A stretch of DNA of 37,051 bases from Candidatus Rokuibacteriota bacterium (GCA_003221455.1 QHRX01000008.1:1-37051); one strand, 5' to 3'. Shown: positions 2,939 to 19,129, counted from the first letter of the stretch. Notes: a model not told the origin generated them from the letters alone. Translations and numbers: made by a program.

Positions 2939-3903
2939 GCGTCGCGCCAGGCGCTCGCGCGGTCGAGGGCCGCGGTCGCCTCCTCGTCCAGGCGGAGGTC
3001 GATCCCGCCAACCAACTCCTTGAGCTGAGCCACGGACGTCGCGCTGGCGATCGGCGCCGTAATGCCGGGCCGGTGGGCGAGCCAGGAGAGCGCGACCTGG
3101 GCCGGCGTCGCGCCCACCGCCGCCGCCACTTTCTCGACTGCCTCGAGGATGGCGAAGCCGCGGTCGGTCATGTAGGTCTTCTGCACGCCGCTGGCTCGCG
3201 CCGTCACGGGCAGATCCCCGCCGCGGCGGTACTTGCCCGATAGGAAGCCGCTCCCGAGCGAGGAGTACGGGATGACCCCCACGCCCTGCTCGAGACACAG
3301 GGGCTCGAGCTCGCGCTCGTACTCGTCGCGGAAGACGAGGTTGTACTTCGGCTGGAGCGACTCGTAGCGCACGACGCCGCGGCTCTCGCTCTCCCCGAGG
3401 GCACGCGCCAGCCGCCACGCGTGGTAGTTCGAGGCGCCGATGTAGCGCACCTTGCCCTGGCGCACCAGGTCGTCGAAGGCGCGCAGCGTCTCCCCGAGCG
3501 GGGTGTCGCGATCGTCCCAGTGGGCCTGATAGAGATCGACGTAGTCGGTCTGGAGCCGGCGCAGCGAGGCCTCGACTCCCTCCACGATGTGCTGGCGGGA
3601 GAGGCCGGTATCGTTCGGGCCGGGCCCCATGGGCGCCATGACCTTGGTGGCGATGACTACGCCGTGACGGTTTCCGCGCCCCCGCGTCCACGTCCCCAGC
3701 ACGGTCTCCGACTCTCCACCCGCGTGGCCCGGTACCCAGCGGGAGTACACGTCGGCGGTGTCGATGAAGTTGCCGCCGGCCTCGATGTAGGCGTCGAGCA
3801 CGGCCTCCGACGTCTTCTGGTCCGTCGTCCACCCGAACGTGTTGCCGCCGAGACACAGGGCGGCGACTCGCAGCCCGGAGCGACCCAGCTTCCGCATCAG
3901 CAT
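2935..3903 (-). CDS. Aldo/keto reductase
   Basis: 322 residues, full length for the NADPH-dependent aldo/keto reductase superfamily. The beginning MRKLGRSGLRVAALCLGGNTFGW is the classic AKR opening. The catalytic tetrad is visible as Asp/Tyr in FIDTADVYSRW, Lys in IATKVM and His in LYQAHWDD. The cofactor end is present as IPYSSLGSGFLSGKY and PIASATSVAQLKE. It is cytosolic with no signal peptide. Substrate cannot be inferred; such enzymes reduce carbonyls of sugars and xenobiotics. Two possible ATGs are six bases apart; the first is used. It is divergent from the amidohydrolase gene across ~145 bases. Confidence 0.92.
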   Translation of the reverse strand: MLMRKLGRSGLRVAALCLGGNTFGWTTDQKTSEAVLDAYIEAGGNFIDTADVYSRWVPGHAGGESETVLGTWTRGRGNRHGVVIATKVMAPMGPGPNDTGLSRQHIVEGVEASLRRLQTDYVDLYQAHWDDRDTPLGETLRAFDDLVRQGKVRYIGASNYHAWRLARALGESESRGVVRYESLQPKYNLVFRDEYERELEPLCLEQGVGVIPYSSLGSGFLSGKYRRGGDLPVTARASGVQKTYMTDRGFAILEAVEKVAAAVGATPAQVALSWLAHRPGITAPIASATSVAQLKELVGGIDLRLDEEATAALDRASAWRDA

Positions 3904-3983
3904 GACGATTCCCCCTGGGCGCCGTCCGCGCCGGTCCTATGATAGGGACGGTCCTTCGCATCCTCAATGGGCGGATCTCAGGG

Positions 3984-3989
3984 TAGAAT
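3984..3989 (+). promoter_or_regulatory. Candidate -10 element upstream of amidohydrolase
   Basis: TAGAAT in the context GGGTAGAATCGGG matches the -10 consensus at five of six positions and lies 60 bases before the ATG at 4050. No good TTGACA is seen at the right distance. A second feature in the same divergent region is the palindrome CCTAT-G-ATAGG (3936-3946), containing TATGAT on the plus strand and TATCAT on the minus strand, which could serve the divergent aldo/keto reductase gene. Confidence 0.3.
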
Positions 3990-4049
3990 CGGGACGGTTC
4001 GCGCGCTGCCGAACACGGGTTCGTCCGCCCCCTCGGCGAGGAGTCGACC

Positions 4050-5519
4050 ATGACGGGTCAGAACCGCCACGCCTTCCAGATCCGCCCGGGCATGCGACGG
4101 GGGGTTCGCACGCTCGCACCGCTCCCGACGCAGCTCGTCTCCAACGAGGAGTTTCCGCCTCTCCCACAGACGGCCGCCCAGCGAGCGGTGGAGGACCGGA
4201 TCCTCGCGAGGGCGGGCCGTCTGGCGCCGAGGCTCGGGCTGAGCCGCCGTGACTTCCTGCGGCGGAGCGGCGGGATGGCGACGTCGCTCCTCGCCATGAA
4301 CGCGGTGTTCGGACGGTTCTTCGACGTACTCGAGGTCGAGGCGGCCGATCCGGCGGCGTTCCGGGAGCGTTCGGGCGCGCCCGTCTTCATCTTTGACGTG
4401 CAGCTCCACTATGTCGGCGCCGGCTATGACCCCGGCGATGCCGAGGCCGGCCGCAAGGGCGCGGTCTCGAAGCAGGGGTTACTCGGGCTGCGCAAGCGGG
4501 CGCGGCGGATGAACCCGGCGCTCGCGTCCGATCGCGGGACCCTGGCCGATCTCTCGTGGGAGAACTTCGTCAAGGAGGTGTTCCTCGACAGCGAGACGGC
4601 GATCGGGCTCATCTCGACACCGCCCGGACCGTATCCGCAGGAGGCGGTGGTGCCGCCGAAGGAGATGACCCACATCCGCGACGAGATCAACCGCATCACG
4701 CAGTCCCGCCGGATGCTCGCCCACGGCCTGGTCACCCCGCAGCTCGGGCGCGCCGATCTCGACTTCATGGACCTCCAGGCGGCCGCGCTCAAGGTCGATG
4801 CCTGGAAGGCGTATACCGGGGCCGCCCCCAAGGGCTTCGATCGCGGCTGGTTCGTCGACGACGAGAAGATCGCCTATCCCATGCTCGAGAAGGCCCGTGC
4901 GCTCGGCGTGCGGCGCTTCTGCGTTCACAAGGGACTGCCCCTCGGACCCGTTGCGGACTACAACCATCCACGCGACCTGATCAAGGCGGCCACCGATTTC
5001 CCGGACATCGACTTCCTCGTCTACCACGCCGGGTTGCTCGGCGTGTCGGCGGCCGGCCCGTCGGGGGACGTCCCCTGGACCACCGAGTTCTGCCAGGCGA
5101 AGCGGAAGGAGCCGGGCCTCCGGAACATCTACATGGAGCTGGGCTCCACCTTCGGGCAGCTCGTCACGACGAACCCTACCGCGTGCGCCCACCTGCTCGG
5201 CCAGGTCATCGACGCCTTCGGCGCCGACCACGTGCTGTGGGGGACGGACTCGATCTGGTACGGGACGCCGCAGTGGCAGATCGAGGCCTTCCGGCGCTTC
5301 GAGATTCCCGACGCGCTGGCGGAGAGATACGGGTACGGGCCGCTCACGCGCCCGGTGAAGGAGCAGATCTTCGGGCTGAACGCCGCGCGGGTCTTCGCCA
5401 TCGACGTGAACGCCCAACGGAACGATCTCCCCACGGACTACCTGAGCCGGATCAAGATGGCGTACCTCGAGGACGGCGCCGCCCCCAGCCACCGCTGGTA
5501 CGGATGGGTCGCGACCTGA
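4050..5519 (+). CDS. Amidohydrolase-family protein with internal twin-arginine motif
   Basis: 489 residues. A TIM-barrel amidohydrolase 2-type metallohydrolase is indicated by FIFDVQLHYVG (in place of the usual HxH strand), FLVYHAGLLG, and the late metal-site segment LWGTDSIWYG. A twin-arginine motif SRRDFL occurs at residues 65-70, followed by a hydrophobic stretch with GGMATSLLAMNAVFG, so Tat export or anchoring is plausible but the motif is preceded by ~60 residues. No later ATG would put the motif at the N-terminus. The usual first HxH is replaced by QLHY, so metal binding may differ from canonical members. The enolase-superfamily gene follows after 64 bases; the two may share a catabolic role. 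Substrate unknown. Confidence 0.85.
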   Translation: MTGQNRHAFQIRPGMRRGVRTLAPLPTQLVSNEEFPPLPQTAAQRAVEDRILARAGRLAPRLGLSRRDFLRRSGGMATSLLAMNAVFGRFFDVLEVEAADPAAFRERSGAPVFIFDVQLHYVGAGYDPGDAEAGRKGAVSKQGLLGLRKRARRMNPALASDRGTLADLSWENFVKEVFLDSETAIGLISTPPGPYPQEAVVPPKEMTHIRDEINRITQSRRMLAHGLVTPQLGRADLDFMDLQAAALKVDAWKAYTGAAPKGFDRGWFVDDEKIAYPMLEKARALGVRRFCVHKGLPLGPVADYNHPRDLIKAATDFPDIDFLVYHAGLLGVSAAGPSGDVPWTTEFCQAKRKEPGLRNIYMELGSTFGQLVTTNPTACAHLLGQVIDAFGADHVLWGTDSIWYGTPQWQIEAFRRFEIPDALAERYGYGPLTRPVKEQIFGLNAARVFAIDVNAQRNDLPTDYLSRIKMAYLEDGAAPSHRWYGWVAT

Positions 5520-5583
5520 CGCCACCGGAAGCGGGGGACGCCGACCACCTGACGCGGCCATCGGTTACGGAGACACTCGCGCC

Positions 5584-6750
5584 GTGAAGATCACGAGCGT
5601 CCAGGCGACCTGGGTCCACGTCCCGATCCCGTACGAGCGGCAGCACGTGAGCGACTTCGGTCGCATCGCCTCGTTCGACTCCGTCCTCGTAAAGGTCGAG
5701 ACGGACGACGGCCTCGTGGGCTGGGGCGAGGCGAAGGCCGGGGTCGGCAGCGCGGCATCGGGGTACGGTCTCGCCGCCATCATCAACCGCGACCTGGCGC
5801 CGCTCCTCGTCGCGCAGGACCCGCGCGACGTGAGCCGGCTCTGGGACGTCATGTACAACACGCCGCGCGAGGGTTTCGCGCTCGATCGCGGCCACGTGCT
5901 GCCCCAGCTCGGGCGGCGGGGCCTCTCGATCTCGGCGATCGCCGGCGTCGACATCGCGCTCTGGGACCTCCTCGGCAAATCGCTCGGCGCGCCCGTCTGG
6001 CGCCTGCTCGGCGGGCGCCGCGCCGAGCGCATGCCCGCGTACGCCTCGGGGGGCTGGGCCGACGAGGCCCGCATCGGCGAGCAGCTCCTCGGCTACGTGG
6101 CGCAGGGCGGGTTCCGCGCCGTCAAGATGCGCGTCGGCGTGATGGACGGCGAGCCGCATCGTTCCGCGGCGCGGGTGCGCGCCGCGCGCACGGCGCTCGG
6201 ACCCGACGTGAAGCTGATGGCCGACGCCCACGGCACGTGGACGGTGGCGGAGGCGAAGGCGTTCTGCCGGATGGTCGAGGACTGCGACCTCTACTGGCTC
6301 GAGGAGCCGGTGACGGCCGACGATAAGACCGGCCTCGCCGAGGTACGCCGCGCCTCCACAGTGCCGATCGCGACCGGCGAGAGCGAGTTCACCCGCCACG
6401 ACTTCCGCGAGATCGCCGAGCTGCGCGCCGCGGACGTGCTGCAGCCCGACCTCGCGATCGCGGGCGGCATCACGGAAGGTGTGCGGATCGGCGCGATCGC
6501 CTCCGCCTACAACTTGCGGCTCGCCCCGCACCTGTGGTCCGGCGCGCCCGCCTTCGCGGCCGGCGTCGCGCTCGCGGCGAGCCAGAGTGCGGGGTTCATC
6601 CTCGAGTATTCGCTCGGCGCGAACCCCCTGCTGCACGAGCTCATCCACGAGACATTCGCCGTGGTGGACGGCCAGCTCGAGGTCCCGGACCGGCCCGGCC
6701 TCGGGATCGTGGTCGACGAGGGTTTCGTGCGCCGCCACGCTCGCCAGTGA
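5584..6750 (+). CDS. Mandelate racemase/muconate lactonizing enzyme family protein
   Basis: 388 residues starting at GTG. It has the enolase-superfamily layout: an N-terminal capping domain (MKITSVQATWVHVPIPYE, GLVGWGEAK) and a barrel with catalytic Lys in VKMRVG, metal ligands in LMADAHG (Asp), YWLEEPV (Glu) and ATGESEF (Glu), and a late His in APHLWSG. Members abstract the alpha-proton of carboxylic acids and act as racemases, cycloisomerases or sugar-acid dehydratases. The specific reaction cannot be read from the sequence. It lies 64 bases after the amidohydrolase and converges with the amine oxidase. Confidence 0.92.
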   Translation: MKITSVQATWVHVPIPYERQHVSDFGRIASFDSVLVKVETDDGLVGWGEAKAGVGSAASGYGLAAIINRDLAPLLVAQDPRDVSRLWDVMYNTPREGFALDRGHVLPQLGRRGLSISAIAGVDIALWDLLGKSLGAPVWRLLGGRRAERMPAYASGGWADEARIGEQLLGYVAQGGFRAVKMRVGVMDGEPHRSAARVRAARTALGPDVKLMADAHGTWTVAEAKAFCRMVEDCDLYWLEEPVTADDKTGLAEVRRASTVPIATGESEFTRHDFREIAELRAADVLQPDLAIAGGITEGVRIGAIASAYNLRLAPHLWSGAPAFAAGVALAASQSAGFILEYSLGANPLLHELIHETFAVVDGQLEVPDRPGLGIVVDEGFVRRHARQ

Positions 6751-6814: not shown

Positions 6815-8743
6815 TCAGTGCGGCTTCGGCACGTCGAGGGCCGGGTTTTGCCCAAAGAATCCGTCGGGCTCGAGCGTGAAGCTTGCGCGATGCACCGGCA
6901 TGACCGGCCAGTCTTCCGGACGCGGAATGTGGGTCACCCCCAACGTGTACCAGAGAACGATGTCGCGGTTGTCGATCGACCGGTTCGCCTGGACCCATGT
7001 GGCGAGCCCTCGGGTGCGGGACGCCTGGTTGACGTAGGCGCCCGCCGCGTACATCTCCGCCGGGTCATAGGCGGTGACCCACACATGGGCCTGGATGAAC
7101 CCGGCCCGTTGGCCGACGATGGAGTCGGGGCTGGCGTAGGCCCGGACATTGTCGCCGGGGACCAGCGCGTATCCCGCTGGCTGGCCGAGCTCGGTCCGGG
7201 CCGCTGGATTAATGACCCTCCAGCGGCGGCTCGACAGCGGGTTGATCTGGCGGCGGGCACTCGCCTCGTGCCCGAGCGGCGTCTCCTTGACCGAGAATCC
7301 ACTCCCGGATGTCCCCGGCGCGGGGACGGTGTCGACCTCCACCACCCGATTTTTCGGGCCGTCGACGTCGACATCTAACCGAAAGTTGAACCAGTGCTGG
7401 TGTGGCACCGCCGCCAGGTGGGGCGCCACTAACGCAATCGACCGCCCCGGTCCAGCCGTTGCGACCCCTTTCGGGAGCACGATCCCGGTGAGGACCGCCT
7501 CCACCGTCAACGTCCCGTCCTGGCGGAAGATCCAGTTGAACCCGTACTCGTAGTTACCCTGGTTGCCGACCCACGTCAGCACCAGCTCGCGCGCTCGCCG
7601 ACTCTCGTTCACGCGCGGATAGTCGACGTGCTTCCACAGGAGCCCGCCGTCGCGCTCGTAGAGGGCGAGAGCGTTCGGGATCTCGTAGGGGACGCCCTTG
7701 TCGTCCGCGATCACGGCGCTGACAAATACGGCATTCGTCGGGACGTCCGTTCCCGGCTCGAGGCGAGTCGCCCACCGCCCCAAATCGATCTCTCCCTCGT
7801 CAAAGGCGTTTCGAAAGGCCCAGGCCGGGCTCGGGTCGGTGTACTGCACGAAGAGCTCGGACAGCGAGGCTCGGTAGAGAATCGGGCGAAGTCTTCCCCG
7901 GTCCTCGTACGCGACCGTGTAGAGCACCAGCCCCTCGCGCGGGTGCATCCCGAACCGAAATTGCCACTTCTGCCATCGGACCAGGGAGCCCGCGATCGTG
8001 AAGCTCGGGCCGTGCGGCTGGACGATCTCGAGGGACTGCGGCGGCTCTCGCTGGGGCGCGAGGGACGCCTCGTCAAGCTCCCGCGGCGTGGTCTCCAGCG
8101 GGACCACGCCCGAGTCGAGGAGGCGAATGACCCGCTTCGCCGTCAGATCGACGACGGCGATCACCCCTTCGATCGGCCGGGCATACGCGTTGTGAGACGA
8201 GGCCTTGTAGTAGGCCACCGCCTTGACGATCCGCCGGGTCCGCTCCTCCGGTGACAGCGCCTCGCCCGCCGGCCAGGGATCGACGTACACGTTGGTGAGG
8301 TCGCTGATCCCCCGTCGTCTCATGGCGGCTTGCCAGCGCGCGTCGTGCCGGACGATGTCTCCGGTCAGGGCGTACTCCTCCGTCAAGATCGCTGGCTGGA
8401 CCCCGGGGATCTCGGTCCAGGAGCGCACCTGCCGCCCTCCAAGGTCAATCGCGGCCTCGAAGGTCCTGTTCGCGGCGCGCTCGTAGACAACGACGAAGGC
8501 CTCGCGTCGGACGGGCAGGCCAGGGACGAAGCCGAGCACGTCCTGTTTCGCTGGTTCGCGGAGCGCGATGAGCGCGAGCCGGCTGCCGGCGTTCGTTCGA
8601 CCGCTGGCCGCGAGGATCTCGACGGCTGCCGCGAGCTCTTCCCGGGTGAGCGGATCCAGCGGGTGTGGCTGGACGGAAACGCCACCGGCGAGCGGACCTC
8701 CCCAAAGGACCAGCGCCGTGGACGCCAGCCACAGCGAACACAC
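6815..8743 (-). CDS. Copper-containing primary-amine oxidase
   Basis: 642 residues in the copper amine oxidase family, which oxidises primary amines to aldehydes with release of ammonia and H2O2. Visible hallmarks are the N-Y-E-Y motif (GNQGNYEYGFNW, residues ~397-400), whose tyrosine is converted to topaquinone; the catalytic-base Asp region AFRNAFDEGEIDLG; the two copper His in PHQHWFNF; and a late His in VMPVHRASF. The N-terminus is hydrophobic and looks like a signal peptide, placing it in the periplasm. The track start is GTG at 8743, which lacks a basic n-region; an in-frame ATT at 8773 preceded by GAGGTGAG would add ILRIGRRRWRV and give a better signal peptide. It is divergent from the regulator gene that heads the 9-19 kb block. 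Confidence 0.92.
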   Translation of the reverse strand: MCSLWLASTALVLWGGPLAGGVSVQPHPLDPLTREELAAAVEILAASGRTNAGSRLALIALREPAKQDVLGFVPGLPVRREAFVVVYERAANRTFEAAIDLGGRQVRSWTEIPGVQPAILTEEYALTGDIVRHDARWQAAMRRRGISDLTNVYVDPWPAGEALSPEERTRRIVKAVAYYKASSHNAYARPIEGVIAVVDLTAKRVIRLLDSGVVPLETTPRELDEASLAPQREPPQSLEIVQPHGPSFTIAGSLVRWQKWQFRFGMHPREGLVLYTVAYEDRGRLRPILYRASLSELFVQYTDPSPAWAFRNAFDEGEIDLGRWATRLEPGTDVPTNAVFVSAVIADDKGVPYEIPNALALYERDGGLLWKHVDYPRVNESRRARELVLTWVGNQGNYEYGFNWIFRQDGTLTVEAVLTGIVLPKGVATAGPGRSIALVAPHLAAVPHQHWFNFRLDVDVDGPKNRVVEVDTVPAPGTSGSGFSVKETPLGHEASARRQINPLSSRRWRVINPAARTELGQPAGYALVPGDNVRAYASPDSIVGQRAGFIQAHVWVTAYDPAEMYAAGAYVNQASRTRGLATWVQANRSIDNRDIVLWYTLGVTHIPRPEDWPVMPVHRASFTLEPDGFFGQNPALDVPKPH

Positions 8744-9114: not shown

Positions 9115-9960
9115 GTGGTACTCGTGCGCCCAAAACTTACAGAACAAGTGCAAGGTTTGATCGCGCCCTATCTCAACATCCACACGACGGCGAAGGCGGC
9201 GGGGGTCAGTCCCTCCGCGTTGCGCCTCTGGGAGCGTCGGGGCCTCGTCGTGCCCACGAAGACGGCAAGCGGGCATCGGCGCTACACCCAGGACGACGTG
9301 AGCCGGATCCGCGACATCCGCCGGCTCCGATCGCTCCAGGGGCTCAACCTGGCGGCGATCGCGGCCACTCTCGGCGTCAACGGAAGCGGCCCCGCCCGGG
9401 GCGGACTGCCGGAGGCCGTTCGCGAACTGGGACGGCGGCTCCAGGCCCTCCGGGCCCGCACCGGACTGACGCTGCGCCAGGCGAGCCGGAAGACCGGCCT
9501 CGCCCCCTCCTTCATCAACTCCATCGAGCACGGGGTGGGGCAGCCCTCGGTCGCGAGCCTCCAAAAGCTCGCACGGTGCTACGGGACCACGGTGTCGGCC
9601 CTGACCGCGCGCCGGACGGGCGCGGCGGGGAAGGTGATCCGCGCCGGCCGGTACCGCGTCCTCCCCATGCTCGGCGAAGGGATCAAGATCGAGCAGCTCG
9701 CCGAGGGCCGGGTGGCAATGGACTGCCAGCGCTTCACGCTCGCCCCCGGGGCCGGCAGCGAGGGCCAGTACGCGCACGAGGGCGAGGAGTTCATCCACGT
9801 CCTCTCCGGCCGGTTCGAGATCACGCTCGCCGGCCGCGAGCGATACCGGCTCGGTCCGGGCGACAGCATGTACTTCAAGAGCAGCGCCCTCCACGCGTGG
9901 CGCAACCCCGGCTCCGACCTGACGGCGCTCCTCTGGATCAACACGCCGCCGACGTTCTGA
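9115..9960 (+). CDS. Three-domain transcriptional regulator: MerR HTH - XRE HTH - cupin
   Basis: The protein contains a MerR-type winged helix (AKAAGVSPSALRLWERRGLV, then GHRRYTQDDV), an XRE/HTH_3 domain (GLTLRQASRKTGLAPSFINS, IEHGVGQPSVASLQKLA) and a C-terminal cupin_2 barrel (YAHEGEEFIHVLSGRFEITL, LGPGDSMYFKSSALHAW). XRE-cupin regulators usually sense a small metabolite through the cupin; the added MerR domain is unusual. The start is uncertain: the track uses GTG 9028, but homology to HTH domains begins around 9170, and GTG at 9115, 9124 or 9148 are all possible; none has a clear ribosome binding site. It heads the co-directional block of transport and biotin-dependent enzyme genes and is divergent from the amine oxidase, so it probably controls one or both. 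Confidence 0.85.
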   Translation: MVLVRPKLTEQVQGLIAPYLNIHTTAKAAGVSPSALRLWERRGLVVPTKTASGHRRYTQDDVSRIRDIRRLRSLQGLNLAAIAATLGVNGSGPARGGLPEAVRELGRRLQALRARTGLTLRQASRKTGLAPSFINSIEHGVGQPSVASLQKLARCYGTTVSALTARRTGAAGKVIRAGRYRVLPMLGEGIKIEQLAEGRVAMDCQRFTLAPGAGSEGQYAHEGEEFIHVLSGRFEITLAGRERYRLGPGDSMYFKSSALHAWRNPGSDLTALLWINTPPTF

Positions 9961-10124
9961 GGACGGACGCGCGGAGGACTCATGGGGCAAGAGCAGGCGA
10001 TGACGGTGAATTGGTCGACCGCGGGACTGCGGACGACCGCCCTCGGGGCGGATCGGCGAGCGGCCATCGGCGACCGGGCGACGCCCGCGATGACAACGAC
10101 GGGTCGATCACAAGGAGGAATCGT

Positions 10125-11213
10125 ATGAGGTCACGTCGGAACCTGGTTTCGTGCCTGGCCCTGGCGGGCATGCTCCTGGCCGCGGGCGCGCTCGTCGCCG
10201 CCCAGGAGAAGCAGTGGTGGCCGTTCCCGGTCGAGGACCGCGATCCGCCCTTCAATATGGAGGGCAAGAAGATCAAGAAGACGTACGTGCCGCTGCTCGA
10301 GAAGGCGGCCAAGAAGTGGAACGTCTGCGTCTCCTTCCCCCACATGAAGGACGCCTACTGGATCGCGGTCGACTACGGCGTGGTCGCCGAATCGCGCCGG
10401 CTCGGCGTCAAGATGCAGCTCGTGGAGGCGGGCGGCTACACGAATCTGGCCAAGCAGATCAGCCAGATCGAGGACTGCGTCGCCCAGGGGGCCGACGTGG
10501 TGGTGATCGGCGCCATCTCCGAGACCGGCCTCAACAAGCTCGTCGAGGAGACCGCGGCCAAGGGGATTCCGGTCATCGACGTGATCAACGGGATCAGCTC
10601 GCCGAAGCTCTCGGCCAAGTCCCTGGTCTCGTTCGGCGAGATGGGGGCCAAGGCGGGCGAGTATCTGGTGAAGATGCACCCGAAGGGCTCGAAGCCGGTC
10701 AAGGTCGCCTGGTTTCCCGGCCCTCCGGGCGCGGGATGGGTGGTCGCCGGTAACAAGGGCTTCGAAGAGGCGGCCGCCAAGGGCGCCATCCAGATCGTCA
10801 GCACGAAGTACGGCGACACCGGCAAGGAGATTCAGCTGAAGCTCGTCGAGGACGTGCTCCAGGCGTACCCCGACATCGACTACATCGTCGGCACCTCGCC
10901 CACGACGGAGGCGGCGGTGGAAGCGCTCCGGGACGCCGGCAAGGCGGACAAGGTCAGGGTCCTCGCCTACTACTTCACCCCGGGCGTGTATCAGGACATC
11001 AAGCGCGGCGCCGTGCTCGCCGCTCCCACCGACTCGGCGGTCATCCAGGGCCGGATCGCCATCGACCAGGCGGTCCGGATCCTGGAAAAGAAGCCCTACA
11101 CCAAGCACACCGGTCCCGAGATCTACGTGATCGACAAGTCCAACATCAACACCTTCCACTACGAGTCGTCCCTCGCCCCCGCCGACTTCAGGCCGACCTT
11201 CACCGTCGACTAG
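10125..11213 (+). CDS. TorT-like periplasmic substrate-binding protein of an ABC importer
   Basis: 362 residues from an ATG with a strong AGGAGG site. An N-terminal signal peptide ends near LVAAQEKQWW. The body is a type 1 periplasmic binding protein (RbsB/LacI fold) with stretches closely reminiscent of TorT, the TMAO-binding partner of the TorS sensor: SFPHMKDAYWIAVDYG, LVEAGGYTNLAKQISQIEDC, VAWFPGPPGAGW, KYGDTGKEIQLKLVEDVL and DYIVGTSPTTEAAVEALRDA. Here the next genes encode an RbsA-type ATPase and an RbsC-type permease, so it very likely delivers ligand to an importer. The ligand may be a TMAO-like or other small nitrogenous compound, but this is inference. The track ORF starting at 9576 is an over-extension. 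Confidence 0.9.
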   Translation: MRSRRNLVSCLALAGMLLAAGALVAAQEKQWWPFPVEDRDPPFNMEGKKIKKTYVPLLEKAAKKWNVCVSFPHMKDAYWIAVDYGVVAESRRLGVKMQLVEAGGYTNLAKQISQIEDCVAQGADVVVIGAISETGLNKLVEETAAKGIPVIDVINGISSPKLSAKSLVSFGEMGAKAGEYLVKMHPKGSKPVKVAWFPGPPGAGWVVAGNKGFEEAAAKGAIQIVSTKYGDTGKEIQLKLVEDVLQAYPDIDYIVGTSPTTEAAVEALRDAGKADKVRVLAYYFTPGVYQDIKRGAVLAAPTDSAVIQGRIAIDQAVRILEKKPYTKHTGPEIYVIDKSNINTFHYESSLAPADFRPTFTVD

Positions 11214-11224
11214 GAGCGCGCGCG

Positions 11225-12781
11225 GTGGCGTTGAGCGATACCCAGACGGGACGGGCCCCGGAGGTGACCTCCGGGGCCCCACCCGTCCTCCGCCTGCGCG
11301 GGGTGACGAAGTGGTTCCCCGGCGTGCAGGCGCTGCGCCGTGTGGACTTCGACCTCCGGCCCGGCGAGGTCCACGTCCTGTTTGGCGAGAACGGAGCCGG
11401 AAAATCGACCCTCATCAACATCGTGGCGGGCGCGCTCCGGCCGGACGCGGGAGAGGTCGAGCTCCGGGGGCGACCGGTCCAGTTCCGCTCCGTTCACGAC
11501 GCCCGCCTGCGGGGCATTAGCGCCGTCTTTCAGGAGTTCAGCCTGGTCCCGGGCCTCACCGTCGAGGAGAACCTCTTCCTCGGCGCCGAGCCGACGACCG
11601 GGGCCCTCATCAACAAGCCCGAGATGCGCCGGCGCGCCGAGGAGGCCCTGCGCCGCCTCGGATTCCCCATCCTGCCTCGGATGCGGGTGAACCGGCTGTC
11701 TCGGGCCGAGCAGCAGATGGTCGAGATCGCCAAGGCCTTCCGCACGAACCTCTCCATTCTCATCCTGGACGAGCCGACGGCGGCCCTGACCGATCGGGAG
11801 ACGGATCGGCTGTTCCAGCTGGTCCTGGACTCCAAGCGGCAGGGGGTCGGGATCATCTACATCACGCACCGCATGAACGAGCTCCACCGGATCGGTGATC
11901 GCGTGACCGTCCTCCGCGACGGCGGCCGCGTCGATACCCTTGCCGTGCGTGATGCCACGCCCGAGAAGCTCGTCGAGTTGATGACGGGCCGCAAGATCGA
12001 GGCGTTCTTTCCCCGCATCGACCACCGCCCGGGAGAGGAGCTGTTCGCGGTGGAGCACCTGACGGCGGGGACGCTCGTCCACGACGTCTCGCTCACCGTC
12101 CGGGCGGGCGAGATCGTCGGCCTGGCCGGACTCGTCGGATCCGGCAAGTCGGAGGTGGGGCGGGCGTGTTTCGGGCTCGAGCCGATCCGCGGGGGGACGG
12201 TCCGGCTACTGGGGCGGAGCGTGGGCAAGCCGACGCCGGGCGCGATGCTCGGGGCCGGCCTCGCGTACGTGCCGCCGGACCGGCGCACGGAAGGGCTCGT
12301 GATGGAGCGGAGCGTTCGGGAGAACATCGCGCTCTCGGCGCTGCCGAGCGCTCACTTCAGCGGCCGCGTCTTGCTCCGTCGGCGGAGCGAGCGGGCGATC
12401 TGTCTCCGGCTGGCCCAGCAGCTCCGGCTCGTGCCGACGGGCATCGAGCGCCCGGTCGCCCTCTTCTCGGGGGGCAACCAGCAGAAGGTGGTGCTGGCCA
12501 AGGGGCTGACCCGCAACCCGAGGGTGTTCGTCATGGACGAACCCACCACGGGGGTCGACGTCGCCGCGAAGACCGAGGTGTACACCTTCATGAAGGACCT
12601 CGTCGAGCGCGAGGGGGCGGGGATCCTCCTGATCTCCTCCGATCTCCCCGAGATCCTCCATCTCGCCCACCGCGCCTACGTGATGCACCGGGGGCGGCTC
12701 CGGGCCGAACTCGGACGGGCGGAGCTCACCGAGCAGGCCGTGCTCTCGCACTTCTTCGAGACGACGACCACCCATGGCTGA
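11225..12781 (+). CDS. RbsA-type ABC transporter ATP-binding protein (two ABC domains)
   Basis: 518 residues from GTG, eleven bases after the binding-protein stop. It has two fused ATPase domains as in RbsA/MglA/XylG. Domain 1 has Walker A GENGAGKSTL, signature LSRAEQQMVEIAKAF and Walker B ILILDEPTAALTD. Domain 2 has a degenerate Walker A GLVGSGKSEVG, signature FSGGNQQKVVLAKGL and Walker B VFVMDEPTTGVDV. This carbohydrate-uptake (CUT2) architecture is cytoplasmic and powers the membrane permease encoded next. The gene overlaps the permease start by eight bases. CUT2 systems usually move pentoses or related molecules; the TorT-like binding protein argues for a different ligand. Confidence 0.94.
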   Translation: MALSDTQTGRAPEVTSGAPPVLRLRGVTKWFPGVQALRRVDFDLRPGEVHVLFGENGAGKSTLINIVAGALRPDAGEVELRGRPVQFRSVHDARLRGISAVFQEFSLVPGLTVEENLFLGAEPTTGALINKPEMRRRAEEALRRLGFPILPRMRVNRLSRAEQQMVEIAKAFRTNLSILILDEPTAALTDRETDRLFQLVLDSKRQGVGIIYITHRMNELHRIGDRVTVLRDGGRVDTLAVRDATPEKLVELMTGRKIEAFFPRIDHRPGEELFAVEHLTAGTLVHDVSLTVRAGEIVGLAGLVGSGKSEVGRACFGLEPIRGGTVRLLGRSVGKPTPGAMLGAGLAYVPPDRRTEGLVMERSVRENIALSALPSAHFSGRVLLRRRSERAICLRLAQQLRLVPTGIERPVALFSGGNQQKVVLAKGLTRNPRVFVMDEPTTGVDVAAKTEVYTFMKDLVEREGAGILLISSDLPEILHLAHRAYVMHRGRLRAELGRAELTEQAVLSHFFETTTTHG

Positions 12782-13817
12782 TGCCGGGCTCGCGACCGTC
12801 GAGCGGCGCCCCCGGGTCGGGACGGCCCTCCTCCGGCTCCTGCGGCGGACCTTCGTTCACCTCGGGGTCCTGCCCCTCCTGCTGGTCATCCTCCTGGTGG
12901 GCTTCGGGACCTGGGAGCCGCGCTTCCTCTCGAGGCAGAACCTCTTCAACGTGGCGCGGCAGGCGACCTACCTGACCGTCGTCTCCATGGGGCAGATGAT
13001 CGCCCTCCTGACCGGGGGCTTCGACCTCTCGGTGGGCGTGATCCTCGCCATGACGAGCGTCGTCCTCGCCAAGGTGATGGCCTCCACGGTGGCGAGCGAC
13101 CCCACTGCCGTCGGCCTCGCCATCGGTCTCGGCATCCTGGCCGGGCTCGGCGCGGGCACGACCATGGGCATCGTCAACGGCATCGGCGTCGCCGTCCTCA
13201 ACGTCTCGCCCTTCATGATGACGCTCGCCATGGCCTCCATCGCCTTCGGCCTCGCCCTCTTCATGACGGGCGGCGTTCCCGTCTACGGGATGCCCAGCCA
13301 GTTCGGGGCGACCCTCGGCTTCGGCAAGCTCCTCGGGGTCCCGGTGCCGGTGTACGTGACGGCCGTGCTCGTCCTCGGCATGTACGTGCTCCTGAACTGG
13401 ACGCGCATGGGCCGGTACTTCTACGCGATCGGCGGTAATATCAAGGCCTCGATCCTGAGCGGCGTCTCGACCCGCTGGTACCTGTTCATGGCGTACGTGC
13501 TGGTCGGGTTCCTCGCGTCGGTCGGCGGGGTGATGCTGACGGCCCGGCTCGAGACCGGGGAGGCCAACATCGGCGCCGCCATGCCGCTCCGGTCGATCGC
13601 GGCCTGCGTGATCGGCGGCGTGAGCCTGCGCGGCGGGACCGGCCGTCTCGGGAGCGTGGTGCTGGCGGCGGTGTTCATCGAGTGGTTCGAGAACGGCATG
13701 AACCTCGTGCGGATCCAGTCGTACCTGCAGATGGTGGTGCTGGGCGTGCTCCTGATCTTCGCGGTCGTCATGGACGAGGTGCGGCACCGGTACGTCGCCG
13801 GGATGCGGGACGGGTAG
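12774..13817 (+). CDS. RbsC-type ABC transporter permease
   Basis: 347 residues, strongly hydrophobic, with about eight to ten membrane segments. It matches the BPD_transp_2/RbsC family: VSMGQMIALLTGGFDLSVG near the first third, NGIGVAVLNVSPFMMTL in the middle, and ASILSGVSTRWYLFMAYVL before the end. It starts at ATG overlapping the ATPase stop (ATGGCTGA), so the pair is translationally coupled. It forms the transmembrane channel of the importer with the TorT-like binding protein and the RbsA-type ATPase. Confidence 0.93.
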   Translation: MADAGLATVERRPRVGTALLRLLRRTFVHLGVLPLLLVILLVGFGTWEPRFLSRQNLFNVARQATYLTVVSMGQMIALLTGGFDLSVGVILAMTSVVLAKVMASTVASDPTAVGLAIGLGILAGLGAGTTMGIVNGIGVAVLNVSPFMMTLAMASIAFGLALFMTGGVPVYGMPSQFGATLGFGKLLGVPVPVYVTAVLVLGMYVLLNWTRMGRYFYAIGGNIKASILSGVSTRWYLFMAYVLVGFLASVGGVMLTARLETGEANIGAAMPLRSIAACVIGGVSLRGGTGRLGSVVLAAVFIEWFENGMNLVRIQSYLQMVVLGVLLIFAVVMDEVRHRYVAGMRDG

Positions 13818-13821
13818 GCCC

Positions 13822-14724
13822 GTGGCTGATCGCGTGGCGGTGATCGGTCTCGGCCGGATGGGCCTCCCGATCGCCCGCAATCTCCTCGGCGCCGGCTACG
13901 CCCTGACCGTCCACAATCGGACGCTGGCGCGGGCGGAGGAGCTCGTGCGCGAGGGCGCGACCTGGGCCGACTCGCCCGCCGCGGCCGCCCGCGAGTCGCG
14001 GATCGTGATCACGATGGTGGCGGACGACGCCGCCCTCGAGGCGGTGGCGTTCGGCGAGAGCGGCCTCGTGGCGGGGCTAGGGCGGGAGGCCGTCCACGTG
14101 GGGATGAGCACGGTCGAGCCTGCGACCTCGCGGCGCCTCGCCGACGCCCACCGCGGGACGGGGAGCCGCTACGTCGCGGCCCCCGTCTTCGGCCGGCCGG
14201 AGATGGCCACGCAGGCCAAGCTCTGGGTCGTCGCGGCCGGACCGAGCGCGGCCGTCGAGACGGCGCGGCCGGTCTTGCAGGCGCTCGGTCGCGGGCTCTC
14301 TGTCGTCGGGGAGGAGCCGAGCCGGGCGAACCTCCTGAAGCTCGCCGGCAACTTTCTGCTCGCGGCCATGGTGGAGGGCCTCGGCGAAGCGCTCACCCTC
14401 GTGGAGAAAGCCGGGATCGACCGCTTGGACGCCCTGCGGACGCTGAACGAGGCGCTCTTCGCGTCCCCGGTCTATCAGACGAACGGGGAGCGGATCTGCC
14501 GGGGCGCCTTCAGCCCGGCCGGCTTCCAGATGACGCTCGGGCTGAAGGACGTGCGCCTGGTCCTGAAGACGGCGGACCAGCTCGAGGTGCCGATGCCGCT
14601 CGCGGCCCTCGCCCACGGCCACTTGCTGGCGAGCGTGGCCCGAGGCCGCGGGCAGCTCGACTGGACGGCGATGGCGGAAGTCCTGCGGGAGGCGGCCGGG
14701 CTCAAACCGCTCGGGCCGGCGTAA
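13822..14724 (+). CDS. NAD(P)-dependent beta-hydroxyacid dehydrogenase (3-hydroxyisobutyrate dehydrogenase family)
   Basis: 300 residues starting at GTG four bases after the permease stop. The N-terminal Rossmann motif is VIGLGRMGLPIARNLL, the substrate-binding segment is around HVGMSTVEPATSRRLADAH, and the catalytic Lys lies in LLKLAGNFLLAAMVEGLGEAL. The family oxidises beta-hydroxyacids or reduces the corresponding semialdehydes (3-hydroxyisobutyrate, tartronate semialdehyde, GLYR1-like). Its tight spacing between transporter and carboxyltransferase genes says it belongs to the same pathway. Exact substrate unknown. Confidence 0.9.
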   Translation: MADRVAVIGLGRMGLPIARNLLGAGYALTVHNRTLARAEELVREGATWADSPAAAARESRIVITMVADDAALEAVAFGESGLVAGLGREAVHVGMSTVEPATSRRLADAHRGTGSRYVAAPVFGRPEMATQAKLWVVAAGPSAAVETARPVLQALGRGLSVVGEEPSRANLLKLAGNFLLAAMVEGLGEALTLVEKAGIDRLDALRTLNEALFASPVYQTNGERICRGAFSPAGFQMTLGLKDVRLVLKTADQLEVPMPLAALAHGHLLASVARGRGQLDWTAMAEVLREAAGLKPLGPA

Positions 14725-14733
14725 GGAGGCATC

Positions 14734-15720
14734 ATGCCCGGTTCGCATGAGGGGAATCGCGCGATCATCGACGTGCTCTCGGCGACGGCGGACCGCCCCG
14801 CCGTGACCTACCGCTACGCGGGAGATCGGTTCATTCTCGTCGAGTACGGCGAGATGGTGCTCGACCTGACGACGAACTTCCGGATCTTCGGCCTCAACGA
14901 CGCCCTCAAGAGAGCCGGCCTCGACGGCCTCATCGAGACGGTGCCGGCGCTCCGCAGCATGCTGCTCCACTACGACAGCCGGCGCCTGCCGACGCGCGAG
15001 CTCGTGGCGACCTTGAAGAAGCTCGAGGAAACGGTGCCCTCGGGGGAGAACCTGAACATCCCGAGCCGCCGGGTGGAGCTGCCGATCGCCTTCGGCGACC
15101 GCTGGACACGGGCGGACATCGAGCGCTACGTCAAGTACACGCGGCAGGACGCGCCCAACATCGTCGACGGGCACAACATCGAGTACATCGCCCGCTACAA
15201 CGGCCTCCGGAACGTCCAGGAGGTGGTCGACTACATCTGCGCGACCGAGTGGTGGAACGCCTGCATCGGCTTCTGGCCCGGCCTGCCCTTCATGTTTCCC
15301 CTGGACCCCCGCTACGCGATCGTGACGCCGAAGTACAATCCGACCCGTCCCTGGACCCCCGAGGGGGCCGTCGGGATCGGCGGCCCCTGCGTCGCCATCT
15401 ATCCGGTCGAGTCTCCGGGCGGATACCAGCTCTTCGGCCGGACGATCCCGGTCTTCGACCTCAAGCAGCGGAACCCGGCGTTCAAGGCCAACCCGATTCT
15501 GCTGAAGCCGGCCGACCGGATCCAGTGGGTCCCCGTCACCGACGAGCAACTCGAATCGACTCGCGAGCGGGTGCACGACGGCACCTACCGCTATACGATC
15601 GTCGGCTATGAGGCACTCAACGTGAAGTCGTACCTCGGGTTCCTCGAGGGGATCAAGGCCGAGGTCACGGCCTTCCAGCAGCGCCAGGCCGAGGCGGTGA
15701 AGCACGTGGCGATTCCGTAG
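14734..15720 (+). CDS. Carboxyltransferase subunit 1 (PxpB/AHS1 family, urea-carboxylase-like)
   Basis: 328 residues from ATG with GGAGG just upstream. It belongs to the AHS1 (allophanate hydrolase subunit 1/KipI/PxpB) family. Diagnostic segments include FWPGLPFMFPLDPR, KYNPTRPWTPEGAVGIGG, and YPVESPGGYQLFGRT. The WTPEGAVGIGG and PGGYQ wording is more like the carboxyltransferase domain of urea carboxylase than short bacterial PxpB, and the protein is longer than the ~220-residue PxpB. With the next gene it forms the split carboxyltransferase of a biotin-dependent enzyme, or a 5-oxoprolinase-type ATP-dependent lactamase. N-terminal ~60 residues are an extension of unclear role. Confidence 0.87.
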   Translation: MPGSHEGNRAIIDVLSATADRPAVTYRYAGDRFILVEYGEMVLDLTTNFRIFGLNDALKRAGLDGLIETVPALRSMLLHYDSRRLPTRELVATLKKLEETVPSGENLNIPSRRVELPIAFGDRWTRADIERYVKYTRQDAPNIVDGHNIEYIARYNGLRNVQEVVDYICATEWWNACIGFWPGLPFMFPLDPRYAIVTPKYNPTRPWTPEGAVGIGGPCVAIYPVESPGGYQLFGRTIPVFDLKQRNPAFKANPILLKPADRIQWVPVTDEQLESTRERVHDGTYRYTIVGYEALNVKSYLGFLEGIKAEVTAFQQRQAEAVKHVAIP

Positions 15721-15736
15721 GGAAGGAGCGCGGTCC

Positions 15737-16717
15737 ATGTTCGAGGTGCTCGAAGGCGGCATCCAGACGACCGTGCAGGATTACCCGGGCCGGGTGGGCT
15801 ACCTCGACCTCGGCACGTATCCGGCCGGGCCGATGGACCACTTCGCCTTCCGGATCGCGAATCTCCTCGTGGGCAATCCCCAGGGCGCCCCCGCGCTCGA
15901 AGTCACGGCGGGCGGGCTCAAGGCCCGCTTCCACGACTCGCGGGCGGTGGCGATCACCGGCGCCGACATGCAGCCGACGCTCAACGGCACGCCGGCGCCG
16001 CTCTGGGAGACCTTCGCCGTCGGCCCCAACGACCTGCTCGAGCTGAAGTTCGTCAAGGGCGCCGGGCTCCGGGCCTATGTCGCCGCGAGCGGCGCCTTCG
16101 ACGTCCCCGAGTACATGGGGAGCCGTGCCACCTTCACGGTCGGGGGGTTCGGGGGCTTCGAGGGCCGGGGGCTCAAGAAGGGCGACCGGGTCCGACTGAA
16201 GCCCGCCGGCGCTCCCGCCGGGCAGGTCGGGCGCCGGCTCCGGACCGATCGCCGGCCCCAGCACGGGACGCACTGGGAGATCGAGGCGATGCGCGGGCCC
16301 CAGGCGGACCCCGACTACATGACCGCGGCGGACATGGACTTCTTCTTCAGCCATGCGTGGAAGGTGGACCGAAACTCGAACCGGATGGGCGTGCGCCTCG
16401 AGTCGCACAAGTGGCAGTGGGCGCGGAAGAGCGGGGGCGTCGCGGGCGGGCATCCCTCCAACATCCTCGACAACGGCTACGCCGTGTGGACGGTCAACGT
16501 GTCCGGGGATCAGCCGATCATTCTCGTCGCGGACGGGCCGAGCCTCGGCGGGTTCATCTGTAACGCCACGCTCATCTACGCCTCCAGCTGGAAGGTCGGC
16601 CAGCTCATGCCCGGCCGCGACACGATTCGGTTCAAGGAGGTCACCATCGACGAGGCGACCGCACTGGCCGCCTCGATCGACGAGGCGATCGCCGAGCGGT
16701 CGATCGAGAGGAGGTAG
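15737..16717 (+). CDS. Biotin-dependent carboxyltransferase subunit 2 (PxpC/AHS2 family)
   Basis: 326 residues, AHS2 (KipA/PxpC) family. The opening FEVLEGGIQTTVQDYPGRVG and the segment LGTYPAGPMDHFAFRIANLL are hallmarks, followed by ALEVTAGG and AVAITGADM. A late stretch GGHPSNILDNGYAVWTVNV also fits the urea carboxylase/5-oxoprolinase group. In E. coli PxpBC with PxpA performs ATP-dependent cleavage of 5-oxoproline; in urea carboxylase the equivalent domains transfer the carboxyl group from biotin. Because a biotin carrier and a biotin carboxylase follow in the same run, the second model is attractive. It starts at ATG preceded by GGAAGGAG, 16 bases after its partner. Confidence 0.9.
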   Translation: MFEVLEGGIQTTVQDYPGRVGYLDLGTYPAGPMDHFAFRIANLLVGNPQGAPALEVTAGGLKARFHDSRAVAITGADMQPTLNGTPAPLWETFAVGPNDLLELKFVKGAGLRAYVAASGAFDVPEYMGSRATFTVGGFGGFEGRGLKKGDRVRLKPAGAPAGQVGRRLRTDRRPQHGTHWEIEAMRGPQADPDYMTAADMDFFFSHAWKVDRNSNRMGVRLESHKWQWARKSGGVAGGHPSNILDNGYAVWTVNVSGDQPIILVADGPSLGGFICNATLIYASSWKVGQLMPGRDTIRFKEVTIDEATALAASIDEAIAERSIERR

Positions 16718-16721
16718 CGTC

Positions 16722-17483
16722 ATGACGGCCAGGATCGACATCAACGCCGACATGGGCGAGAGCTACGGGCGCTGGACGCTCGGCCACGACGACGAGCTCA
16801 TGCCCTTCCTCAGCTCCGCCAACATCGCGTGCGGCTTCCATGGCGGCGATCCGCACGTGATGCGGCACTCCGTCCGCCTCGCGAAAAAGCACGGCGTCGC
16901 CGTAGGCGCCCACGTCTCGTTCCCCGATCTCATCGGCTTCGGTCGCCGGCGCATGCAGATCTCGCCGCAGGAGCTGAAGGACTACGTCGAGTACCAGGTC
17001 GGCGCCCTCCAGGCGTTCGCGGCGGCGGAGGGGGCGCGGGTCGAGCATGTCAAGCCCCACGGGGCGCTGTACGTGATGTGCACCGAGGACGAGGCGTACG
17101 CGCAGGCCGTCTCGGAAGCGGTGAGGGAGCTGGGCGAGGGCCTGATTCTCCTGCTGACCGGCGAGCGGGTGGCCGCCGCCGCGAGGCGGGCCGGCGTGCC
17201 CTTCGTGATGGAGGGGTACATCGACCTGGACTACGATGCGAAGGGCTCCCTCATTCTCGAGCGGGCCAAGAAGGCGCGGGATCCTGAGGACGTGGCCGCC
17301 CGCGCGGTCACGCTGGCCACCGAGGGCAAGGTGCCCGTCCGCGACGGCGGCTGGCTGCCGCTGGGCGCGCGGAGCGTCTGCGTGCACGGTGACGCCGATA
17401 ACGCACCGGCCATCGCGCGAACGGTCCGGGAGCGGCTCCTCAGGGCGGGTGTCGAGGTCGCGCCCTTGCGCGCTCTCCTCTAA
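16722..17483 (+). CDS. pxpA: 5-oxoprolinase subunit PxpA (LamB/YcsF family)
   Basis: 253 residues; the track ORF is trimmed to the ATG at 16722, which has GAGGAGG upstream inside the end of pxpC-like. Family hallmarks are INADMGESYGRW at the N-terminus, SANIACGFHGGDPHVM, and GAHVSFPDLIGFGRR, followed by VKPHGALY. LamB/YcsF proteins have a polysaccharide-deacetylase-like barrel and act with PxpB/PxpC to hydrolyse 5-oxoproline at the cost of ATP. Here the gene stands between the carboxyltransferase subunits and biotin genes, so it may hydrolyse a carboxylated lactam or amide. Confidence 0.93.
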   Translation: MTARIDINADMGESYGRWTLGHDDELMPFLSSANIACGFHGGDPHVMRHSVRLAKKHGVAVGAHVSFPDLIGFGRRRMQISPQELKDYVEYQVGALQAFAAAEGARVEHVKPHGALYVMCTEDEAYAQAVSEAVRELGEGLILLLTGERVAAAARRAGVPFVMEGYIDLDYDAKGSLILERAKKARDPEDVAARAVTLATEGKVPVRDGGWLPLGARSVCVHGDADNAPAIARTVRERLLRAGVEVAPLRALL

Positions 17484-17509
17484 TTCCTCACCACGGGGGG
17501 CGAACGGGT

Positions 17510-17737
17510 ATGGCGAACAGCGTCGATGTGGTGGCTCCGGTTCCCGGCCTCGTCGCGAACGTCGTGGCGAAGGTCGGAGCGACGGTGGCGGCAGGCGACC
17601 CGGTCGTGACGCTCCAGGCGATGAAGACCGAGATCGCCGTGGAGTCCGAGCACGCGGGCACGGTCGAAGCGGTCCTGGTGCGGGAGGGTCAGGAGGTCGA
17701 TCTGGGAGCCGTCCTGGCGCGGGTGCGCACCGCGTAG
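17510..17737 (+). CDS. Biotin carboxyl carrier protein (stand-alone biotinyl domain)
   Basis: 75 residues, a complete biotinyl/lipoyl attachment domain without the long linker of AccB. The biotinylation motif is AMKTE with the target Lys at residue 39, and the flanking strands VVAPVPGLVANVVAKVGATV and HAGTVEAVLVREGQEV form the usual barrel. AMKTE differs from the common AMKME at one position but keeps the target lysine. It lies nine bases before the biotin carboxylase gene and presumably shuttles carboxybiotin from that enzyme to the PxpB/PxpC-like subunits. Confidence 0.93.
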   Translation: MANSVDVVAPVPGLVANVVAKVGATVAAGDPVVTLQAMKTEIAVESEHAGTVEAVLVREGQEVDLGAVLARVRTA

Positions 17738-17746
17738 CGTCCGGGC

Positions 17747-19129
17747 ATGCCCTTCGACACGGTGCTGGTCGCCAACCGCGGCGAGATCGCCGCGCGGGTA
17801 CTCCGCGCCTGCCGCGAATCGGGCCTCCGCACCGTCGCCGTGTGCTCGGAGGCCGATCGCGACAGCCCCTATACGCGCCTGGCCGACGAGGTGCGTGAGA
17901 TCGGCCCCGCCAAGGTGGCCGAGAGCTACCTGAACCTCGACCGGATCCTGGAGGCGGCACGGGCCACGGGGGCGGGGGCCATCCACCCCGGCTACGGGTT
18001 CTTCGCCGAAAACAGCTCGCTGGTCCGGAAGATCGAAGAGGCCGGCCTGGCGTTCATCGGACCGTCGAGCGCCAGCATCGCGCTGATGGGCGACAAGCTG
18101 GCGGCCCGCCGCACGGCCACCGAGGCCGGGGTCCCCATGCTGCCGGGCACGGAGCGGGTCGACGGGGTCGAGGAGGCCCGCCGCCTCGCCACCGAGGTCG
18201 GCTTTCCGCTCGTCCTGAAGCCCGCGGGCGGCGGCGGCGGCATCGGGATGGCCATCGTGCGCGACGCGGCGGGCCTCGAGCGCGCATACGCGACCGCCTC
18301 GCGCCTCGGCCAGCTGACGTTCGGCAACCCGGCGGTGTACCTGGAAGCGCTCCTGCCCGAGGCCCGCCACGTCGAGGTCCAGCTCATCGCCGACGACCAT
18401 GGCCACTACGTCCACCTCGGCGAGCGGGAGTGCTCCCTCCAGCGACGATACCAGAAGCTGATCGAGGAAGCGCCCTCCCCCGCGGTCGACGACGCCCTCC
18501 GGCTGGAGATGGCCGCGGCGGCGCTCCGGCTGGCTCGCGCCATCGGCTACCGCAACGCGGGCACCGTCGAGTTCCTGCTCGGGCCCGACCGCCGCTTCTA
18601 CTTCCTCGAAATGAACACCCGCATCCAGGTCGAGCATCCCGTGACCGAGATGGTGACCGGGATCGATCTCGTGCGAGAGCAGATCCGCGTCGCGGGCGGG
18701 CTGCCGCTCAGCTTCGGGCAGGACGATGTGCGGCCACGCGGTCACGCGATCGAGTGCCGCGTCTACGCCGAGGATCCGGAGCGGAACTTCATGCCCTCGC
18801 CCGGCCAGGTCAAGGCGTTCCGTCCGCCGCTGGGCCCCGGCACCCGTCTGGACGGGAACGTCGAGGCGGGGATGCAGGTCTCGGTCCACTACGACCCGTT
18901 GCTGGCCAAGCTCATCGTCTGGGATCGCGACCGCCCGCAGGCCACCGCCCGGATGCGGCGAGCCCTCGCGGAGCTGGTGGTCGAGGGCGTCCGCACGACC
19001 CGCGATCTGCTGTCTCGGATCCTCGAGGCGCCGGAGTGGCGGGCGGGACGGCTCCACACGCGGCTGCTGGAGGAGGAGCTCCTGCCGCGGTTCAAGGCGG
19101 CCCCGCTCGGGTCTGGGTCCGCACAGTGA
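17747..19129 (+). CDS. accC: Biotin carboxylase
   Basis: 460 residues, full length for a biotin carboxylase subunit. It shows the N-terminal domain VLVANRGEIAARVLRACRE, HPGYGFFAEN, the ATP-grasp glycine loop KPAGGGGGIGM, HVEVQLIADDHG, GERECSLQRRYQKLIEEAPS, FLEMNTRIQVEHPVTEMVTG, and the C-terminal GHAIECRVYAEDPE. It catalyses ATP- and bicarbonate-dependent carboxylation of biotin on the carrier protein. The genomic partner is the AHS1/AHS2 pair rather than AccA/AccD, so it is probably part of a urea-carboxylase-like complex instead of acetyl-CoA carboxylase. It is the last gene of the block. Confidence 0.95.
   Translation: MPFDTVLVANRGEIAARVLRACRESGLRTVAVCSEADRDSPYTRLADEVREIGPAKVAESYLNLDRILEAARATGAGAIHPGYGFFAENSSLVRKIEEAGLAFIGPSSASIALMGDKLAARRTATEAGVPMLPGTERVDGVEEARRLATEVGFPLVLKPAGGGGGIGMAIVRDAAGLERAYATASRLGQLTFGNPAVYLEALLPEARHVEVQLIADDHGHYVHLGERECSLQRRYQKLIEEAPSPAVDDALRLEMAAAALRLARAIGYRNAGTVEFLLGPDRRFYFLEMNTRIQVEHPVTEMVTGIDLVREQIRVAGGLPLSFGQDDVRPRGHAIECRVYAEDPERNFMPSPGQVKAFRPPLGPGTRLDGNVEAGMQVSVHYDPLLAKLIVWDRDRPQATARMRRALAELVVEGVRTTRDLLSRILEAPEWRAGRLHTRLLEEELLPRFKAAPLGSGSAQ

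Follow-up and report, generated by a model that had tools for sequence, protein, structure and literature searches.

What reaction is served by an operon in which an ATP-binding cassette (ABC) importer is followed by a pair of urea-carboxylase-like carboxyltransferase (CT) halves, a PxpA protein, a biotin carrier, and a biotin carboxylase (BC)? This question is raised by positions 9115–19,129 of a 37,051-nucleotide stretch of DNA (QHRX01000008.1), hereafter the window, which lies on contig C212 of a 4.4 Mb metagenome-assembled genome (MAG) of a soil bacterium whose closest operon-carrying relatives are MAGs of Candidatus Rokuibacteriota. Gene content, homology, phylogeny, and conserved linkage were established directly, and they suggest that the operon probably serves the ATP-, bicarbonate-, and biotin-dependent import and opening of a lactam, the likeliest being 2-pyrrolidinone or a close derivative.

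Gene content of the operon

The operon comprises ten intact genes on the plus strand. Each domain was confirmed by Pfam and NCBIfam, and the Pfam matches exceeded the curated cut-offs.

9115–9960, +, regulator with MerR, XRE helix-turn-helix, and cupin domains (Pfam MerR_1, HTH_3, Cupin_2)
10125–11213, +, TorT-like periplasmic binding protein (Peripla_BP_4/TorT; NF008185, 402 bits, cut-off 200; PDB 4yhs, E = 6e-133; TorT 3o1h)
11225–12781, +, ATPase of the ABC importer, sugar (CUT2) type (Pfam and NCBIfam)
12774–13817, +, permease of the ABC importer (PF02653)
13822–14724, +, enzyme of the beta-hydroxyacid dehydrogenase family, 3-HIBADH-like (PF03446, NAD_binding_2, and PF14833; PDB 4gbj, then 3doj, 3pdu, and 3pef)
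14734–15720, +, CT subdomains C/D, CT_C_D (AHS1) (PF02682; tree)
15737–16717, +, CT subdomains A/B, CT_A_B (AHS2) (PF02626; tree)
16722–17483, +, PxpA, a LamB/YcsF hydrolase (PF03746, E = 7e-91; conserved motifs against 2dfa and 1v6t)
17510–17737, +, stand-alone biotin carrier of 75 residues (PF00364, Biotin_lipoyl, E = 3e-16)
17747–19129, +, BC, ACC-type, of a dedicated clade (three Pfam BC domains; tree)

The original prediction had described these genes as a one-directional set, tightly spaced from the binding-protein gene onward. The domain matches, strand, and intactness of the genes bore this out, and the measured gaps from that gene onward were −8 to 26 bp, with Shine-Dalgarno-like sequences before most genes; 164 bp separate the regulator gene from the binding-protein gene. 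In the BC, the glycine-rich loop and the motif EMNTRIQVEH are visible, and all three Pfam BC domains were over the cut-off. The carrier has the biotinyl-lysine motif QAMKTE, with the lysine at position 39, and the biotin ligase BirA was found over the cut-off in the same genome.

The start codon of the regulator is uncertain (GTG at 9115 or 9028), and its top NCBIfam match was PuuR, at 67 bits and under the cut-off. The dehydrogenase is similar to a family to which the Geobacter enzymes 3pdu and 3pef belong; a role in semialdehyde reduction is no more than a lead. A copper amine oxidase (445 bits) lies at 6815–8743 on the minus strand, divergent from the operon; such oxidases yield aminoaldehydes that cyclise to imines and might be a source of lactam. 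Further upstream, an aldo/keto reductase, an amidohydrolase, and a mandelate-racemase-family enzyme occupy 2935–6750.

Descent of the carboxyltransferase and biotin carboxylase

A phylogeny of the AHS1/AHS2 pair against urea carboxylase and PxpBC had been proposed along with the original prediction. In two separate trees, one for each CT half, the window CTs and their relatives formed a single clade, sister to the urea carboxylases and outside the PxpB and PxpC clades. The system clade and the urea carboxylase clade were each monophyletic, and the window CT did not fall inside the latter; support for the system clade was moderate in the CT_C_D tree (93/85) and 98 in the CT_A_B tree (SH-aLRT). 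The profile scores ran in the same order, with CT_C_D reaching 279 bits against urea carboxylase (TIGR02712) and 82 bits against PxpB (cut-off 145.55), and CT_A_B reaching 368 bits against urea carboxylase and 165 bits against PxpC (cut-off 500). The best solved structures were the Kluyveromyces lactis urea carboxylase and urea amidolyase.

Compared with urea carboxylase (K. lactis enzyme KlUC, PDB 3va7), the CT halves are homologous over their full length, and the set of BC, carrier, and CT domains is the same. However, the operon divides among four separate genes what urea carboxylase holds in one fused chain, its BC is of another lineage, and PxpA stands in place of allophanate hydrolase. 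The CT also differs at one site: the aspartate in GLGDVxLGxP was present in 14 of the 14 urea carboxylases compared and in none of 13 system members, all of which carry the PxpB-like motif [IL]GF[WF]PGLPF at that position, while the adjacent KYNPxR stretch is still urea-carboxylase-like. In KlUC the replaced residue is Asp1584, which presumably contacts urea.

These comparisons bear on whether the operon encodes a split carboxylase for urea or a ureido compound (urea, a substituted urea, or guanidine), with PxpA substituting for allophanate hydrolase. The sister position of the CT, at about 40% identity, fits such an enzyme, as does the agmatine deiminase that adjoins a related PxpA set in Shinella. 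However, the aspartate invariant in urea carboxylases is replaced, no allophanate hydrolase was matched over the cut-off in any of 10 carrier genomes, and the importer is of a type other than the Urt urea importers, so that we regard a urea or ureido substrate as quite unlikely. PxpA was absent from the fetched flanks of all 67 urea carboxylase loci.

The operon shares with the PxpABC 5-oxoprolinase a PxpA with intact LamB/YcsF motifs, split CT halves, and the GFxPGLP motif, whereas it brings its own BC and biotin carrier. A biotin-assisted 5-oxoprolinase would use the same N-carboxylation and PxpA scheme to convert 5-oxoproline to glutamate. PxpA is by family a 5-oxoprolinase subunit, and the Thermomicrobia carriers have no other PxpB-like protein. 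In contrast, canonical PxpB is present in seven carrier genomes (the own genome and six others), the CT lies far from PxpBC in the trees, and the GABA transaminase and succinate-semialdehyde dehydrogenase (SSADH) genes that neighbour related sets suit γ-aminobutyrate (GABA), not glutamate. This explanation is unlikely. We rejected the operon as the sole 5-oxoprolinase of the cell, since a complete canonical PxpA-PxpB-PxpC set lies on contig C160 of the same genome.

The BC has a different history. In the BC tree, the window BC clustered with the BCs of other loci of its kind in a dedicated clade and was not of the urea carboxylase type; the BC beside the system in Thermomicrobia formed a separate clade, with a carrier of the PRK07051 type. 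A derivation of the BC from urea carboxylase was rejected by these trees. The description "split urea carboxylase" in the original prediction thus holds for both CT halves and fails for the BC, which was recruited at least twice. One CT and PxpA core has been joined to BC and carrier genes of differing descent, which argues for a functional need. Two modules that merely lie side by side, a spare BC and carrier of an acyl-CoA carboxylase and a biotin-free PxpABC-like lactamase, would agree with the ACC-type BC and with two relatives that lack one. In these loci, however, no acyl-CoA CT was seen, and across phyla the BC and carrier accompany several CT lineages, in varied gene orders and with biotin supply genes; we consider this independence very improbable.

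A second CT-CT-PxpA lineage, with CTs about 40% identical, was seen beside varied transporters in Rokubacteria (loci L039–L047). It was rejected as the same system, no BC or carrier having been found within the stretches examined. A creatininase-family protein lies beside it at 4414–5280 of L045, and an M24 peptidase-family protein in L039.

Conserved linkage and the importer

Genome-wide co-occurrence was a further check that the original prediction had named. In a CT search that covered 84,980 species, twelve further genomes had CTs 56–87% identical to those of the window, from Rokubacteria, a "Proteobacteria" MAG, a "Deltaproteobacteria" MAG, and Thermomicrobia. The CT and PxpA core recurs in these groups. 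Below this identity group, the species scan returned only fused urea carboxylases; the copy on the Thermomicrobium roseum megaplasmid came from a plasmid search. In the two non-Rokubacterial MAGs (L056 and L062), the order is BioB (divergent), an orthologue of the window regulator as the first gene of the operon, GABA transaminase, importer, CT pair, PxpA, carrier, BC. In Thermomicrobia, it is BC (divergent), molybdenum hydroxylase, (importer), carrier, CT pair, PxpA, (BioY), the BioY gene lying beside the system in T. roseum.

A plasmid search with the binding protein as an independent query found relatives 54–65% identical. All 10 of the proteobacterial plasmid loci examined have the order PxpA-carrier-BC-CT-CT-TorT-ATPase-permease (L211 by tblastn). 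These operons of Alpha- and Betaproteobacteria (Ruegeria, Azospirillum, Rhizobium, Sulfitobacter, and Diaphorobacter) have the same functional parts as the window operon, whereas their CTs form a third lineage with the motif GFV[AS]GLPF, the carrier is of the PRK07051 type, the regulator is of the LysR family, and the gene order is different. The arrangement is not due to chance, because four other Rokubacterial MAGs, the two further MAGs, Thermomicrobia, and all of these plasmid loci share it. GABA transaminase and SSADH genes lie beside the set in Ruegeria and Aestuarium; SSADH, carbonic anhydrase, and bioB, bioF, and bioD lie beside it in Rhizobium CIAT894; and a molybdenum hydroxylase adjoins it in Diaphorobacter and Sulfitobacter alexandrii. 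The GABA genes and SSADH beside the set make 2-pyrrolidinone the leading candidate, ahead of other lactams.

The window binding protein and its 54–65% identical relatives precede ABC importer genes, in contrast to the trimethylamine N-oxide (TMAO)-sensing TorT that works with TorS. The kinase-linked TorT proteins examined were less than 50% identical and adjoin a TorS two-component system or, in further loci, similar unnamed kinases. The NF008185 name, "TMAO reductase system protein TorT", is probably misleading for the binding proteins of TorS-less ABC importers. In Pararhizobium, an importer that begins with a 42% identical binding protein lies next to a caprolactamase-alpha-like protein (543 bits, under the cut-off of 1000) and a hydantoinase B. 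This locus (Pararhizobium gei, L216 8926–18546) thus combines a TorT-type importer with caprolactamase-like HyuA and HyuB, and an amidase and an aminotransferase lie nearby.

The same importer relationship would agree with a different ring as substrate (delta-valerolactam, caprolactam, hydantoin, or a hydroxylated lactam), with the GABA genes serving a general omega-amino-acid pathway, since a related importer adjoins a CapA-like caprolactamase subunit. GabT-family enzymes also accept 5-aminovalerate. However, a C4 chain is the best match to the two loci that have both GabT and SSADH and to the third that has SSADH, which leaves these other cyclic amides somewhat unlikely. ATP-dependent caprolactamase and hydantoinase (CapAB and HyuAB) would have ATP-coupled lactam opening in common with the operon, whereas their proteins are unrelated to those of the operon and use no biotin.

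Sets of PxpA, a CT pair, BC, and carrier that contain other CTs are already found in databases, on plasmids of Bradyrhizobium, Lactiplantibacillus, Klebsiella, and Shinella. Against the window CT, the CTs of these four sets gave low scores, and in the tree they lie outside its clade; the transporters of such uncharacterised clusters differ (polar amino acid ABC and NRAMP). On the Shinella plasmid (L197 5926–12436), PxpA, a fused CT, and a fused BC-carrier adjoin agmatine deiminase and a polyamine-binding protein, so that a related biotin/PxpA set perhaps acts there on another substrate. On the Klebsiella (L198) and Lactiplantibacillus (L196) plasmids, the biotin-linked PxpA sets are accompanied by a "putative hydro-lyase" and an NRAMP metal transporter. 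The PA0492–PA0496 cluster of Pseudomonas aeruginosa is, by description, alike in its part list (PxpA, two CT halves, BC, and carrier); PA0492, PA0495, and PA0496 presumably have the corresponding domains. No characterised biotin-dependent, PxpA-containing lactam hydrolase was found in the open-access literature searched, and the precise function of the biotin subunits PA0493 and PA0494 has been called unknown (PMC6249292). The window operon is thus a variant of a known but uncharacterised kind, distinguished by a CT that is sister to urea carboxylase while being linked to PxpA.

Proposed lactam opening and its significance

From these data, we infer that a lactam is taken up, N-carboxylated, and then cut by PxpA in its carboxylated form, with GABA as the product. 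The TorT-like ABC transporter would import a small cyclic amide or an N-heterocyclic precursor. As expected for its family and its active-site motifs, the BC would carboxylate biotin on the stand-alone carrier with ATP and bicarbonate, and the urea-carboxylase-like CT pair would transfer the carboxyl group to the lactam nitrogen, activating the ring by analogy with the conversion of urea to allophanate. PxpA may then hydrolyse the activated ring amide, and the resulting carbamate would lose CO2 to give an omega-amino acid, the net reaction being an ATP-driven hydrolysis of the lactam in which bicarbonate is recycled. In related loci, GABA transaminase and SSADH could process the product further, and the molybdenum hydroxylase of several relatives could convert a cyclic imine to the lactam. 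The regulator presumably responds to a compound of the pathway.

The original interpretation is supported in part. Its biotin-dependent lactam or amide carboxylase/hydrolase, with a substrate brought in by the neighbouring transporter, has strong support from the linkage conserved across phyla and, in relatives, from the genes for biotin supply and carbonic anhydrase and the GABA-catabolic genes. Several observations weigh against lactam opening. No assay of an enzyme from this CT clade is known. In the Rokubacterial relatives L052 and L054, the carrier gene is not directly followed by a BC, and a search of their genomes gave no dedicated BC; a partial BC at the end of contig C112 of genome G039 was rejected as the missing partner, at only 43 bits against the window BC. 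The CT_C_D protein of the system is the only one in Thermomicrobia, so that 5-oxoproline may be the substrate there. GABA genes were not found near several of the loci. The window operon itself has neither GabT nor molybdenum hydroxylase; a GABA transaminase-like gene 54% identical to the GabT inside the L062 operon lies on another contig of its genome (L162 3404–4657, contig C105), and the four other Rokubacterial carriers gave only about 40% matches to the L062 GabT.

Were PxpBC the root of the tree, urea carboxylase might have descended from a carboxylase linked to PxpA. We tentatively propose, at slightly less than even confidence, a new route of lactam hydrolysis, in which a biotin enzyme N-carboxylates the ring amide, PxpA cuts the N-carboxylactam, and bicarbonate serves as an activating group that is recycled, and that the set is a living sister of urea carboxylase, which may stem from a PxpA-linked lactam carboxylase.

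If lactam opening is correct, it would give a function to a widespread family of genes that lie beside PxpA and whose sole annotation is "biotin-dependent carboxyltransferase", and perhaps also to PA0492–PA0496 of Pseudomonas. Nylon monomers and solvents such as pyrrolidones give enzymes that open lactams a practical interest. The system would represent a second energy-coupling chemistry for stable lactams, with carboxylation instead of phosphorylation, and would provide a testable origin for urea carboxylase.

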